From: an uncultured Bacteroidia bacterium
Lineage (GTDB): Bacteria; Bacteroidota; Bacteroidia; Bacteroidales; UBA932
Direction of reading: 5' to 3'
DNA: 44,103 nucleotides
NCBI GenBank assembly: GCA_902762655.1
Contig: CACWOZ010000017.1
Location: 1-44,103, forward strand
Part shown: one piece after another, positions 1,530 through 42,713 of the stretch
How positions within the stretch are numbered: position 1 is the stretch's first letter
How the letters are laid out: every line of letters starts with the position of its first letter
Position numbers and translations under genes: made by a program
The notes under the pieces: model-generated
Databases searched by the model: none
Seen by the model: the letters and a program-made list of their open reading frames with translations, nothing else
Told to the model about the DNA's origin: nothing

Positions 1530-1749
1530 CTCATTATTTATTTGCATTTGCTGCCAAAATACGGCCCGTTCAGGTAAGATTCAAGCAAATAAATTCCCTG
1601 TTCCCAGTTGAAATCCAAATAATAGGCTAATTATTTTTGACTTTTCTATTTAGGACACTCTAAATCAAGCATTTGCAAAATGATTGATTTTGGGCGCAAC
1701 AATAACAATCCATCGGTCTCATAGAGATCGAGGTATTAGAGACTCTAAA

Positions 1750-1917
1750 AAATCCTCGGTAAACAAACTTCCCAAAGCGGACAACTGAGTCCAGAGCCGC
1801 AAGTATCTGCATTAGGTTACGGAGGCAGGAGGTACACGCTTTAACAAGCGGACGTCAACGCCGCATTGGAATTTAAGTACTCTCTCCCAAGGGAAGTCTG
1901 TTTACCAGACAGGATTT
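1750..1917 (-). ncRNA. Candidate bridge (seeker) RNA downstream of the IS110 transposase
   Basis: On the minus strand this region begins 9 bases past the transposase stop and folds on itself. Arm 1891-1906 pairs with 1758-1773 over 16 positions, counting one G-U pair. After a small internal loop, 1911-1917 pairs with 1750-1756, giving a 23-pair closing stem. The enclosed 117 bases contain further stem-loops: 1777-1800, 1838-1852 and 1849-1865 (the last two are alternatives). IS110-family recombinases use an element-encoded RNA with donor- and target-pairing loops, found downstream of the gene in the IS1111 group. The structure is visible; the function is inferred. I could not assign guide segments by eye, and a T run after the stem means it could instead act as a terminator. 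Confidence 0.45.
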
Positions 1918-1925
1918 CAATTGCA

Positions 1926-3005
1926 TTATGAGACATAGCAGTTGACATAAGGCTGCTGATGTTTCATGACGAAATAAATACGATTGACCAGGCGTCTTGC
2001 AATCTTAATAATGGCCTTGCTCGGTTTCATTTTTCTGCAATATTCGACGTAAGCTGCGGAAAGGACCGGATCTTTTCGTGATGCTACCCATGCTGCTTCT
2101 ACAATCAACCACCTCAGTTTGGCGTGGCGCCGAACGGTGATATCACCAATCCCATCATGAGCACCACTGGAATGACACATCGGGACGATACCTATGTAAG
2201 AGGCAAAGCAAGAAGCATCCTTAAAACGGGTAATATCATCCACCTCAGATAAAATCGTCAAACCGGCTAACTGTCCAATTCCAGGAACACTCATCAAATA
2301 CTTAAGCGGCTCCTCAAACCGCTCTGTTCTTGACAGAACACGAAGTTCCTTCATCAGCTTGAGTTGCTGAGCACGAAGATCCTCATACTGTGCAATCAAT
2401 AAATCAAGGGTCTTCTTTCCGTAATCCGTCTCAAGTTCCAGTCCTTTCAACCACAAGACAAACTTGTTGGTCCAAGCGCATCCGGGGCGCTGAAACTCCT
2501 CCGGAATATCAATCCCCAGATATCTTAGATGGGACTTGATCCTGTTCTTGTGACGCGTCTGATCTTTTGTCAACGAGTCTCTCAATCTTATCAAAGAGCG
2601 TATCTCTGTTGCCACGCTATCCGGGACATAAATCCCTTTCAACTCTCCGGCACGTAAACTTCTCGCAAGCTTCCCGCTGTCAACGGCATCTGTCTTCCGC
2701 AGTCTCTCTCCAGCCATCGTAGGCACATCCGCAGGGTTCACAACAATGTTGTTTATCCCTAAATTACACAACTCCCAGTGTATCCAGAACCCGCAGAAAC
2801 CGGCCTCGTAGACCGAGTAATATTCCGCATCCGGATAAGTGTTGGTCAGAAACTTGTTCAAGGCAACAGGGCTTGGATCCTGTGTGAACTTCTTCAATAC
2901 TGCCTGTTCTGATAGAACAGTTACCGACCAACTTCTCAAATGGACATCAAGTCCGACAAAAATCCTTTGACCTTTGAAGGAAAATGGTTTACTTTGTGTA
3001 CTCAT
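1926..3005 (-). CDS. IS110-family transposase (DEDD recombinase)
   Basis: This 359-residue protein has both IS110 domains. The N-terminal RuvC-like DEDD domain starts with FVGLDVH (Asp20), has VYEAG (Glu67) and KTDAVDS (Asp106, Asp109). A helical linker follows, then the Transposase_20 domain with SVPGIGQLAGLTILSE (about 239-254), ASYIGIVP and the HSSG motif around Ser279/Ser280, where the family's catalytic serine lies. All expected acidic residues are present and the frame is intact, so it looks functional. The enzyme would catalyse RNA-guided excision and insertion. Its start is nearly covered by a hairpin, and its 3' end runs into a structured RNA region, both described separately. Confidence 0.95.
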   Translation of the reverse strand: MSTQSKPFSFKGQRIFVGLDVHLRSWSVTVLSEQAVLKKFTQDPSPVALNKFLTNTYPDAEYYSVYEAGFCGFWIHWELCNLGINNIVVNPADVPTMAGERLRKTDAVDSGKLARSLRAGELKGIYVPDSVATEIRSLIRLRDSLTKDQTRHKNRIKSHLRYLGIDIPEEFQRPGCAWTNKFVLWLKGLELETDYGKKTLDLLIAQYEDLRAQQLKLMKELRVLSRTERFEEPLKYLMSVPGIGQLAGLTILSEVDDITRFKDASCFASYIGIVPMCHSSGAHDGIGDITVRRHAKLRWLIVEAAWVASRKDPVLSAAYVEYCRKMKPSKAIIKIARRLVNRIYFVMKHQQPYVNCYVS

Positions 3006-3006
3006 A

Positions 3007-3065
3007 GCTACTGTATTTTTAGTTACATGTTCGGCTTTATAAATGTAGCCAAAAATATCAGTAGC
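3007..3065 (-). promoter_or_regulatory. Hairpin abutting the transposase start codon
   Basis: Arms 3007-3020 and 3051-3065 form a 14-bp stem with one bulged base, around a 30-base loop. The stem ends one base before the transposase ATG (3005), so in mRNA form it would cover the ribosome-binding region. Insertion sequences often limit transposase translation with such structures, especially against read-through mRNA. That role is inferred. Confidence 0.6.
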
Positions 3066-3079
3066 TTTTATTTCATATG

Positions 3080-3130
3080 AAAAACTTCTCGGGGGTCTGC
3101 CAAGCGGCAGGGGCCGACAAGCCCCTGAGA
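3080..3130 (-). terminator. Terminator-like alternative hairpins in the transposase leader
   Basis: On the minus strand, TCTC-A-GGGG (3122-3130) can pair with CCCC-C-GAGA (3087-3095), followed by a run of T at 3080-3084 with one interruption. The same bases can form two smaller hairpins instead: 3108-3114 with 3121-3127, and 3097-3101 with 3106-3110. This is the geometry of an intrinsic terminator with a competing fold, between the -7 box and the gene. Confidence 0.4.
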
Positions 3131-3150
3131 GCGTTCTTTCATTTGGATTA

Positions 3151-3158
3151 CAAACATA
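3151..3158 (-). promoter_or_regulatory. -7 promoter box (TATGTTTG) of the transposase
   Basis: This TAnnTTTG match on the minus strand predicts an mRNA start near 3148 and so a leader of about 140 bases. That leader contains the terminator-like hairpins and the start-covering hairpin. Confidence 0.4.
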
Positions 3159-3349
3159 GTTACTTTATCGATGTGAAGCACTATCACTTGGCAGCGAACC
3201 TTTGCTGAACAACTAAGTATAAGTGGCGATGACCGGCATAGATGAAACCGGGAAATACCGGTAACGGGTGGCTGCTACCCATTCTTTTAAGTTGAGTCAG
3301 ACATAGCTCGAAGATAGTCAGTTTAGAGGGATAATTGCCAAATATCTAT

Positions 3350-3361: not shown

Positions 3362-4108
3362 ATGAAGAAAAAACTATTGGCCATGCTGATCCTCGCCTTT
3401 GCGGGATCATTCGCTCTGGGCGCATTCGACAGGGGGCTGGGCAACCCCAATTCGGTATACACACCGAAAGGGACCTTCGCCACATCGTATTACATCACCT
3501 ATAACAACTGGAACGCCTCCGCCGGAGATGACCTCACGAAGGGAGTGTCCCTTTTCGGCCTGATTCCAGATGTGAACGGCAACCTCTCGAACCTTGGCTT
3601 CAGCGCCGGACTGTCCTGGTTCTTCAAGGATAACTGGAGCATAGGCGCCCTGGTAGGGTACGACAACCGCAAGATTGACAGCAACCATCTGTCGATGCTG
3701 AAAGGGATGGTAGACCTTTCCAACCAGCATAGCCGCACGGAAACTTATTCCGGATCCATAAGGGTCAGGCGATACATTCCTCTTTTCGGCACAAGGATCA
3801 TCGCTCTTCTGACAGAAGGACGGCTTGGAGGAAGTTTCGGCTACGATAAGACCTACGCAGAGACCGACCGTGGCAAGGAAGGTCTTTTCTCGGCCAATTA
3901 TTCCGTTTTCGGCAGGCTGTATGCCGGCGTTTCTGTCTTCTTTACCAACTTCACCGCTCTGGAAATCGCTTTCCCCGTCTTTGGGGCCAGCTACGACTGG
4001 AGCAACCAGATAGAAAAGCAGGAATATGAAAGCAAACTCACCGGATTCAGCTTCAGGGACCGCACCAATCCCCTTGGAGTGACATTAGGTATAGTTTATC
4101 ACTTCTAG
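3362..4108 (+). CDS. Outer-membrane beta-barrel protein
   Basis: This 248-residue protein has a clean signal peptide (MKKKLLAMLILAFAGSFALG) and then alternating hydrophobic/polar strands with many aromatic and glycine residues, such as FSAGLSWFFKDNWSIGALVGYD and YAGVSVFFTNFTALEIAFPVF. It ends in an aromatic (GIVYHF), the usual signal for insertion by the BAM machinery. It most resembles small OmpW/OmpA-like barrels of unknown function found widely in Bacteroidota. No plug, TonB box or periplasmic domain is visible. It is followed after 4 bases by a surface lipoprotein gene, so the two are probably co-transcribed. The start at 3362 is chosen because the -7 box lies immediately upstream and an earlier in-frame start would fall before the promoter. 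Confidence 0.75.
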   Translation: MKKKLLAMLILAFAGSFALGAFDRGLGNPNSVYTPKGTFATSYYITYNNWNASAGDDLTKGVSLFGLIPDVNGNLSNLGFSAGLSWFFKDNWSIGALVGYDNRKIDSNHLSMLKGMVDLSNQHSRTETYSGSIRVRRYIPLFGTRIIALLTEGRLGGSFGYDKTYAETDRGKEGLFSANYSVFGRLYAGVSVFFTNFTALEIAFPVFGASYDWSNQIEKQEYESKLTGFSFRDRTNPLGVTLGIVYHF

Positions 4109-5617: not shown

Positions 5618-6697
5618 ATGGATATCAAACTCAAGCAGAATTGCAAATACGCCCTTCTGGTTCCTACCAGCATGGGGCTCAGGATTACGCCCGAGAGCGG
5701 ACAGCCCGTCCACTCCAGCGACCTCTTCCATCTTCAGGCTACCAGCGCCGAGACCAATGTCGCGAGCATCGCATCTTACCTCGGCCTGCCGGTGAAGGTG
5801 CTCACCGCTTTCGTAAAGGGCAGTCCTTTCGCTCATTTCATCAAGGGCAATCTCCGCAGCCGCGGAATGGACTTCGAAGGCCCTGAGGTAGAGCAGGGCG
5901 GTCCCTGGGGATATCGCCATCAGATCAATGTGGCCGACAGCGGATACGGCTCCCGCGGCCCGCGCGTTTGGAACGACCGTGCCGGTGAGGTTGGCCGCAC
6001 CCTGAACGTGAAGGACTTCGACCTCGAGCGCATCTTCGGGCAGGAAGGAGTGCAGATCATACATCTCTCCGGCCTCATCGGCGCCCTCAGCCCGGACACC
6101 AGCCGCTTCTGCCTCGAACTCGCCCGCGCCGCGAAGAAGCACGGCACCCGCATCAGTTTCGACCTCAACTACCGCGCATCCTTCTGGAAGGGCCGCGAGC
6201 AGGAACTGCACGAGATCTTCTCCGAAATCGCAAGTTACGCCGACATCCTCATAGGCAACGAGGAAGACTTCCAGCTCTGCCTTGGCATCGAAGGCCCTGA
6301 GGCCGGCGGAAAGGATATCGCTGCGAAGATCGACGGATTCAAGGAGATGATACGCCGCGTGCGTGAGCGCTATCCCAACGCTCAGGTTTACGGCACCACC
6401 CTCCGCCAGGTGAACAACACCAACAGCCACAACTGGGGTGCCATCCTTCTCGACGGAGAGGACTGGCACGTGATACAGCCCCGCGAAATCCACGTCCTCG
6501 ACCGCATCGGCGGCGGCGACGGCTTCGTGGGAGGCCTCCTCTACGGCATACTCCGCGGATGGAGCGGCGAGCAGTGCGCCCAGTTCGGGTGGGCCAGCGG
6601 CGCCCTTGCAACCACCTTCCTCACCGACTACGCCCAACCCGCCGACGAAGAGCAGGTATGGAGCGTCTGGCAGGGAAATGCACGTGTAAAGAGATAG
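5618..6697 (+). CDS. kdgK: 2-dehydro-3-deoxygluconokinase (PfkB-family sugar kinase)
   Basis: This 359-residue PfkB-fold kinase probably phosphorylates 2-keto-3-deoxygluconate to KDPG with ATP in the cytoplasm, the last step before aldol cleavage. Visible motifs are ATSAETNVASIASYLGLP (41-58, PfkB signature 1 region), the substrate-loop segment FDLNYRASFW (181-190), which matches the D-N-R--LW pattern of KDG kinases, and GGGD (298-301) with Asp301 as catalytic base in the anion hole. The length fits the Bacteroidota form. It is the first gene of a tight cluster, 3 bases before the LarA-like gene, which supports a sugar-acid role. Another PfkB specificity cannot be excluded. Confidence 0.85.
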   Translation: MDIKLKQNCKYALLVPTSMGLRITPESGQPVHSSDLFHLQATSAETNVASIASYLGLPVKVLTAFVKGSPFAHFIKGNLRSRGMDFEGPEVEQGGPWGYRHQINVADSGYGSRGPRVWNDRAGEVGRTLNVKDFDLERIFGQEGVQIIHLSGLIGALSPDTSRFCLELARAAKKHGTRISFDLNYRASFWKGREQELHEIFSEIASYADILIGNEEDFQLCLGIEGPEAGGKDIAAKIDGFKEMIRRVRERYPNAQVYGTTLRQVNNTNSHNWGAILLDGEDWHVIQPREIHVLDRIGGGDGFVGGLLYGILRGWSGEQCAQFGWASGALATTFLTDYAQPADEEQVWSVWQGNARVKR

Positions 6698-39163: not shown

Positions 39164-39248
39164 GGTGAGATGTCCGAGTGGTTGAAGGAGCCTGCCTCGA
39201 AAACAGGTGTACGGCAACGTACCGGGGGTTCGAATCCCTCTCTCACCG
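39164..39248 (+). tRNA. tRNA-Ser (anticodon CGA)
   Basis: The 85-base gene folds with a perfect 7-bp acceptor stem (39164-39170 with 39241-39247), a G discriminator at 39248, a long variable arm (TGTACG-GCAA-CGTACC type, typical of class II tRNA-Ser) and the TTCGAATCC T-arm. The anticodon loop is CTCGAAA, reading CGA for UCG codons. The innermost anticodon-stem pair looks like a C-A mismatch. CCA is not encoded. A terminator follows at once. Confidence 0.95.
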
Positions 39249-41966: not shown

Positions 41967-42713
41967 ATGAAACACATCAAAACAATTCTGATTATCGCAG
42001 TCATTGCTCTACAGGCATGTGGCTGGCACAACGGACAAGGCAGCCGAAATGGCAATGGCGGCCAGGAAACCGACGATGTCAAGGTAGCCCTGGAAAATGG
42101 CGGGCAGGTGAATCTGGATAGTTTCCGCTGGACGCGGGAGCCGGCGGCTTTCACCGCAGGCGAAGACACAATAACCATCACTACCGCTCCCCACACCGAT
42201 CTTTGGCAGCGCACATACTATCATTTCTGCAACGACAATGCACCTGTCCTGCAGATGCAGACCAGGGAGCAGTATTTCAGTTTCACCGTTAAGACCGACT
42301 TCACTCAGAGCAACCGGCGTTTCGACCAGTGCGGCATAGTGATGTATCTTGACAGCGAAAACTGGCTGAAGGGCTCCGTCGAATACGAAAACGAACAGTT
42401 CCAGCATCTAGGCAGCGTGGCGACCAACAACGGCTATTCCGACTGGGCTACCACCGCTATCCCGGCTGACGTCAAGACAATGTGGTACCGCTTTTCACGC
42501 CGCGCCGACGACTACTGCATAGAATGCTCGACAGACGGCGTAGAGTTCAGTCAGATGCGCATCTGCCATATGTACGCAGGTGCGGATGCTATCTCTTTCG
42601 GCATCTACGCATGCTCGCCGGAGGAATCCTCCTTCACGGCGGTATTTACCGACATGAAGATAAGCGAGTGTATGTGGAAGGCTCATGACGGACAACAACC
42701 AGATGAATTATGA
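41967..42713 (+). CDS. DUF1349 lipoprotein
   Basis: This 248-residue protein is anchored by Cys18 (LQAC lipobox). Residues about 48-235 form a concanavalin-like beta-sandwich of DUF1349 type, with QYFSFTVKTDFTQSNRRFDQCGIVMY, NWLKGSVEYENEQF, DVKTMWYRFSRRADDYCIE and ISFGIYACSP. DUF1349 proteins are often annotated as regulators of enolase, but the fold suggests glycan binding or processing. It overlaps the next gene by 4 bases (ATGA) and is first in a three-gene unit ending with the dipeptide epimerase. Confidence 0.8.
   Translation: MKHIKTILIIAVIALQACGWHNGQGSRNGNGGQETDDVKVALENGGQVNLDSFRWTREPAAFTAGEDTITITTAPHTDLWQRTYYHFCNDNAPVLQMQTREQYFSFTVKTDFTQSNRRFDQCGIVMYLDSENWLKGSVEYENEQFQHLGSVATNNGYSDWATTAIPADVKTMWYRFSRRADDYCIECSTDGVEFSQMRICHMYAGADAISFGIYACSPEESSFTAVFTDMKISECMWKAHDGQQPDEL

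Follow-up and report, generated by a model that had tools for sequence, protein, structure and literature searches.

A predicted four-guide bridge RNA in a Bacteroidales insertion sequence of the IS110 family with an IS1111-like layout

In the window (as we call the whole stretch of 44,103 nucleotides analyzed here), a transposase gene is followed, on the minus strand, by a sequence that can close into a long folded RNA. The question raised by this locus is whether such an RNA tells the element where to insert. The first-pass annotation had proposed a candidate bridge RNA; covariation among related RNAs, together with complementarity at four places (in the target and in the element ends), supports this proposal. 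Judged from sequence comparisons, the region 1749–1918 (minus strand) can with high confidence be taken for the bridge RNA, or seekRNA, of an insertion sequence (IS) that belongs to the IS110 family and is laid out like IS1111 elements, and the folded RNA very probably steers the landing site of the element.

The open reading frame at 1926–3005 (minus strand) is intact and encodes an IS110-family transposase (recombinase) of 359 aa. Both domains that define the IS110 superfamily, PF01548 and PF02371, were identified in the protein, which also matches the NCBIfam model NF033542 "IS110 family RNA-guided transposase" (E 4e-63; 213.5 bits, cut-off 140). By eye, the C-terminal motif G--P----S(t)G, as given in PMC11187229, can be recognized as GIVPMCHSSG. 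The whole IS comprises 1561 bp without the AA core of both ends (1603–3163, minus strand), and these ends are common to copies inserted in different host sites. The core is present as a right copy (1601–1602) and a left copy (3164–3165, derived from the target TAAA), both on the minus strand, as are the right host flank CAGGGAATTTATTTGC (1585–1600), in which the right target guide finds a possible pairing partner, GGAATTTA, and the left host flank ending in CATCGATAAA (3164–3180). The ends contain subterminal inverted repeats, ATTTGGATTTCAA on the right (1608–1620, minus strand) and TTGTAATCCAAAT on the left (3141–3153, minus strand), identical in 12 of 13 positions. The non-coding DNA amounts to 323 bp 3′ of the gene versus 158 bp 5′ of it. 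With the boundaries set here, the terminal extensions are 10 and 5 nt, core excluded. A start of the element at TAAAGT and, later, the published 7/3 extensions were considered and dropped, because sites without GT put the boundary after TAAA; the left boundary is thus supported by related sites, from which the terminal bases of the element are absent.

Between the left end and the transposase gene lies a GC-rich hairpin block (3078–3140, minus strand) followed by a T run, a copy of which is present elsewhere in the same genome (G000:C2:158229-158291, L003). The block is nearly invariant among copies that show up to 15% difference in their proteins, and a similar block also occurs without any match to the remainder of the element. 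Its fold is unremarkable (14 of 200 shuffles as good); the block may shield the gene from read-through.

The start of the predicted RNA closely follows the transposase stop codon. The minus strand of 1740–1925 folds at −62.5 kcal/mol, compared with a mean of −46.7 for shuffled sequences (sd 4.3; z −3.7; none of 200 shuffles as stable). In the minimum-energy fold, the closing stem (1749–1773 with 1891–1918) consists of 25 pairs, formed between 1891–1907 and 1757–1773 and, past a 3-nt bulge (1908–1910), between 1911–1918 and 1749–1756; it encloses 117 nt (1774–1890). The initial description, a 23-pair stem (1750–1773 with 1891–1917) holding 117 bases directly after an IS110-family transposase gene, was therefore essentially right as to the fold, and as to the gene it is borne out by the PF02371, PF01548 and NCBIfam matches. 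Within the enclosed region there are two hairpins of the form GCGG...CCGC, namely hairpin 1 (1848–1864, minus strand), which separates two predicted target guides, and hairpin 2 (1777–1800, minus strand), which separates two predicted donor guides.

The plus strand folds about as well (z −3.9), as a long inverted repeat would, and the strand therefore cannot be chosen from folding energy alone. The minus strand was chosen on the basis of guide matches and of the scores of a covariance model over this region (180.5 bits for the minus strand versus 16.9 for the plus strand), and a plus-strand RNA was rejected. The RNA at 1749–1918 is the only strong match of the model in the genome to which the window belongs. 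A search of Rfam at the gathering threshold matched nothing but a tRNA at 39164.

The structure alignment comprised 14 RNAs (nine of subfamily A and five of subfamily B). The RNAs fold into six helices, in which 98.2% of 618 cells are paired. Changes on both sides were found in 10 pairs; shuffles gave 3.1, with none of 500 reaching the observed number, and controls in which the structure was slid gave 0–3. The gene is thus accompanied by a conserved structured RNA with covariation, as expected of a bridge RNA. A covariance model built from subfamilies A and B only was tested on 14 loci (L034–L047), and it recovered an RNA downstream of the transposase gene in subfamily C (L035, E 1.7e-7; L046, 8e-6; L040, 1.1e-4; L047, 1.3e-4), with a weak match in L036 (E 0.075). 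No match at E 1 was obtained for nine of the 14 loci, including the subfamily C members L034, L037 and L039, the RNAs of which were still used in the analysis of guides. As a separate observation, in L014 (946–1183) the half of the RNA that follows the right donor guide has been deleted and the right end is intact.

In order to compare guides with host DNA, 26 elements were parsed for RNA and flanks, 24 of which (all but L005 and L008) have a usable right flank. Nine of 15 diverged relatives were used (L033–L037, L039, L040, L046 and L047); those left out were L038 (internal stop), L042 (cut by a contig end), L041 (by eye, no such RNA), L044 and L045 (other hairpin sequences) and L043 (pattern matched outside its RNA). 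The flank of L013 and hairpin 2 of subfamily A were assigned separately from the pattern parse.

When every 10-nt window of each RNA was compared with the right flank, the one located just 5′ of hairpin 1 was the best or tied-best in all 24 elements (ties with windows elsewhere in the RNA: the element of the window studied here, L004 and L046). This segment, identified by best pairing and by permutations, is the predicted right target guide, UUAAAUUCCAAU (1865–1876, minus strand). Its mean number of Watson–Crick matches is 9.5 of 12 with the element's own flank versus 5.7 with the flanks of others, and none of 100,000 permutations was as good, either overall or when restricted to exchanges within subfamilies. 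Tested per subfamily, the numbers of equally good permutations per 100,000 were 4 for A (n=11), 838 for B (n=5) and 5 for C (n=8), 838 (about 1 in 120) being the minimum attainable with five elements. In subfamily A the variable guide bases TCC, TCG, TGG and CGG go with flank triplets GGA, CGA, CCA and CCG; the correspondence is exact in 7 of 11 elements, with a difference of the G-U type in three (L006, L009 and L014) and a mismatch in L004. In the window the right flank exceeds the other 24 by one base, and only 7 of 12 matches are obtained in the allowed registers; if the guide is shifted, eight contiguous pairs can be formed by eye, with GGAATTTA.

The flanks are host DNA at different sites, and common descent of the element therefore cannot explain this matching of a guide that changes with the site. 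The same result bears on the view that the structure is a transcription terminator, or a 3′ UTR stabilizer of the transposase mRNA, with no guide function. A run of six U directly after the closing stem speaks for this, but the stem encloses 117 nt, the terminator scan made no call there, and a hairpin that only ends transcription, the option named at the outset as refuting a bridge RNA, fails to explain a guide that changes with the host DNA around each copy. The matching contradicts a purely terminating role, and we consider it very improbable. The correspondence could also be thought to arise if the element copied or duplicated target bases at its ends, the RNA not reading the target at all; the flank does adjoin element sequence and has the core dinucleotide in common with it. 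The matching guide, however, lies approximately 260–275 bases into the element, on the inner side of the right subterminal repeat, and similar target sequences are present in host DNA without the element, which makes such copying extremely improbable. Reading of the target by the RNA is thus the preferred explanation.

The predicted left target guide, UUGUUAAAG (1839–1847, minus strand), has the same sense as the left host flank TAAA plus the G of the left end. The test covered the 22 elements for which at least 14 nt of left flank are present. The numbers of permutations as good per 100,000 were 0 overall, 838 in subfamily B (again the minimum) and 2 in subfamily C. In subfamily A, to which the element of the window belongs, the test is uninformative (72,060 of 100,000 as good), because the left flanks there are nearly all TAAA. 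An unbiased scan (n=21) gave a low peak just after hairpin 1 (6.0 of 10 with own flanks versus 4.9 with those of others), and left-flank matching is clearest in L039, with 10 nt, in L046, with 9 nt, and in both L035 and L160, with 8 nt. A left target guide that changes with the site is thus observed in subfamilies B and C.

The flanks themselves reveal the target. The 12 distinct left flanks of subfamily A end in TAAA (10), TAGA (1) or TACA (1), followed by GTAACTATG or GTACCTATG. All 25 distinct right flanks, which follow CAACTGGG, begin with AA; in 24 of them AA is followed by five bases and then ATTT (23) or ATTC (1), the exception being the window, with six bases. The target in this genus can thus be written as TAAA followed by N5-ATTTA, with the element bounded by the AA core (forms CGATAAATTCCGATTTA; the window's own, TAAACAGGGAATTTA). 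In 19 genomes of the genus the motif CGATAAA-N5..7-ATTTA was counted 21 times, versus 6 for a reversed control; in 12 genomes from other genera the counts were 89 and 84.

Related sites without the element were found in two cases. The G601 site (L112) is identical over 598 of 600 bases to the left of the L013 element, up to GCATAAA, and reads GCATAAA-TCCCGATTTATG where L013 has GCATAAA-GTACCTATG. It then continues as host sequence unlike the right flank of L013; this conflict on the right side possibly reflects a rearrangement (through the element) or a misassembly, the L013 contig being 4.7 kb long. L115 and L116 show 89–90% identity over 598 bases to the left of the L010 element and lack GTAAC; on the right side they share with L010 only a 20-base stretch, with 17 and 18 identical bases (equalled by 3 and 0 of 500 shuffles). 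The shared flank patterns, together with these related sites lacking the terminal bases of the element, define AA as the ambiguous core. Searches with the left flanks of the window, L012 and L006, with the right flanks of L009 and L014, and with six joined flank pieces revealed no site without the element matching both flanks at high identity. A repeated match to the left flank of L012 was rejected as an ordinary gene, with a paralogue at 41967–42713 of the window.

The bases TCG that follow ATTTA are conserved in the right flanks of subfamily A (T in 17, C in 19 and G in 15 of 24), although the RNA holds no code for them. They fit the near-palindrome CGATAAA-N5-ATTTATCG found in the genus, and their conservation reflects either a preference of the protein or the motif itself. 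Since the motif is nearly palindromic, guides with UCC and those with CGG/UGG would read it from opposite sides. We tentatively put forward, as an idea that is more probably wrong than right, that this Bacteroidales IS110 clade combines an IS1111-like layout and four guides with a transposase from outside the IS1111 cluster, and that a change of the right guide from UCC to CGG/UGG flips the orientation of insertion in the near-palindromic target. If true, this would be a natural reprogramming of the orientation of insertion, not of its place.

The segments on both sides of hairpin 2 match the element ends. The predicted right donor guide, AGAUACUU (1801–1808, minus strand), which occupies the 8 nt before hairpin 2, pairs in 7 of 8 positions with the core plus left end, AAGTAACT. 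Among 15 distinct guide/end pairs the mean is 5.27 of 8 (range 4–7; perfect in none). The predicted left donor guide, UUGGGAA (1769–1775, minus strand, overlapping the 3′ side of the closing stem), has UGGGAA in common with the right end CTGGGAA, and at least 6 nt are common to this guide and the right end in 24 of 24 elements (TGGGAA, TGGAAA or ATAGAA, according to subfamily).

Guides that pair with both element ends are thus present, with shared ancestry as a possible cause of the correlation: guides and ends are inherited together in one element, and ancestry could produce part of it. This leaves room for a target-only seekRNA, in which the half of the RNA around hairpin 1 would act as a processed species of 70–100 nt, the second half would be a precursor, and the ends would be recognized by the protein; for ISEc11, an RNA of 70–100 nt with target matches was sufficient for transposition (PMC11187229). 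On the other hand, changes on both sides occur in four of the eight pairs of hairpin 2. Pairing of the right donor guide is confined to one register (twelve shifted registers gave 1.1–3.1 of 8, and none of 100,000 permutations was as good as the true one), and this guide varies along with the left end, as in L046 (CCGT) versus L035 and L039 (CTGT). We therefore regard a target-only RNA as rather unlikely, and favor a bridge RNA with two donor and two target guides. The refuting conditions named in the first-pass annotation are not borne out: covariation is present in related copies, both target guides have been located (by permutation, the right one is specific to its flank in all three subfamilies and the left one in B and C), and the segments around hairpin 2 match the left and right ends.

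In seven of the eight elements of subfamily C (L034, L036, L037, L039, L040, L046 and L047, but not L035) we also observed that the match of the left donor guide extends past the core and G by one host base, as if the guide were reading the flank of the integrated element.

The structure with its covariation, the matching of guides to flanks in separate insertions and to the element ends, and the ends themselves are observed; transcription and processing of the RNA, its binding by protein, the circle and the strand exchange are inferred. The RNA would presumably be produced from the 3′ portion of the transposase mRNA and be bound by the transposase. The pair of guides around hairpin 1 would read the target, the 5′ guide pairing with the top strand to the right of the insertion point and the 3′ guide with the bottom strand to the left. 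The pair around hairpin 2 would read the donor, formed by the ends that are joined in the excised circle; its 5′ guide would pair with the left end, its 3′ guide with the right end, and the AA core would be included in the donor guides. The transposase would then join donor and target at AA, giving TAAA-[GTAACTATG...CAACTGGG]-AA-N5-ATTTA.

Bridge RNAs have been predicted for 93% of the IS1111 elements in ISfinder (Durrant et al. 2024, PMC11208160), and an RNA is therefore expected here. As in the IS110/IS1111 bridge RNAs of that study, there are pairs of target and donor guides with the core dinucleotide inside the pairings; as in IS1111 elements, the RNA is located in the right non-coding end, the donor nucleotides of many IS1111 elements lying in a multiloop (PMC11208160). 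The IS1111 elements ISEc11, ISPa11 and ISKpn4 (Siddiquee et al. 2024, PMC11187229) likewise have the non-coding region downstream of the gene and subterminal inverted repeats. The top-strand guide precedes the bottom-strand guide in IS1111 seekRNAs, the reverse of the IS110-type ISEc21, and their long form of 145–170 nt resembles the 163–170 nt found here (PMC11187229). The element thus shows a long 3′ non-coding region, subterminal repeats (12/13; usual length 11–13 bp) and the top-strand guide first, and, as far as sequence can tell, its RNA is a four-guide bridge RNA with the guide order reported for IS1111-type elements. In contrast, the terminal extensions (10 and 5 nt) are longer than the 7 (or 6) and 3 bp of IS1111, the transposase has 359 aa versus 330–350, and donor guides are evident here, unlike in the seekRNAs of ISEc11, ISPa11 and ISKpn4 (PMC11187229). 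The core of IS621 is CT (PMC11208160), whereas here it is AA.

The transposase of IS621 is also far from this clade (about 30% identity over the partial sequence used), although those of IS621 and ISCro4 (structures 8wt6 and 9t56) are homologous (E 1e-8 and 2e-10). In both of these elements the RNA is located upstream of the gene, and neither is known to have long subterminal repeats. IS5075/IS4321, which we take to belong to the IS1111 family, have an IS110-superfamily transposase and, by eye in L209, a longer intergenic stretch downstream, but the transposase identity is only 23–26%. The RNA covariance model R1 gave no significant match in IS5075/IS4321 or in eight plasmid relatives from other phyla. 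IS4321 is named together with work on IS1111 in PMC11187229. In a tree with one IS1111 reference and long branches to IS5075 and IS621, the Bacteroidales transposases included fall into a single clade (17 rows, 100/99) that is distant from both. The IS1111-type layout named at the outset (RNA 3′ of the gene, subterminal repeats, guide order) thus holds; with approx. 26% identity to IS5075 and these long branches, the placement of the transposase is unsure. We describe the element, on its predicted features, as a member of the IS110 superfamily with a bridge RNA and an IS1111-like layout, and make no claim on the IS1111 group.

Systems of this kind are known: a bridge RNA reads donor and target with two loops (PMC11208160), and a seekRNA is a shorter finder of the target (PMC11187229). 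The branch described here offers unusually clear natural evidence that supports both loops, here within an IS1111-like layout, and supplies four-guide RNAs whose targets are known from insertions in Bacteroidales, in which programmable insertion tools would be useful. Among the open-licence papers listed in searches on IS110/IS1111 bridge RNA and seekRNA, none describes the Bacteroidales clade in its title or the opening of its abstract.

A scan of the collection of species genomes revealed 13 loci of close relatives (the whole or part of the protein, 85–100% identity in the best segment). Further copies and partial copies are present in other genomes of the same genus, and relatives with 36–60% identity in the same order; no relatives were found in the IMG/VR viral contigs. 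One copy, 100% identical over the 1401 bases searched, occupies another site in another genome, which suggests recent movement of the element. In the window's own genome, a contig ends within a second copy (G000:C22:29723-29824, L002), of which the left end is present, in the same host site as L008.

Several minor observations concern the surroundings of the copies. On the minus strand of L009, near 927, the flank of the L009 copy contains another right end of this family, which has a flank of its own (AATTCCAATTTATCG). L015 contains an unoccupied target-like sequence, TTAAAGTATTCCAATTTATC (1665–1684), approximately 1.2 kb from the copy. In L101, repeats ending in CGTATGTTTGTT (982–1033, 3387–3438 and 5743–5794) are placed about 2.4 kb apart before different ORFs, and this repeat end resembles left ends found in subfamily C. 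Several target-like sites in L105, L127, L101 and L106 are accompanied by GC-rich hairpin repeats (CCCCGACAGTC...GCCGGGG), which are possibly terminators or a repeat family.
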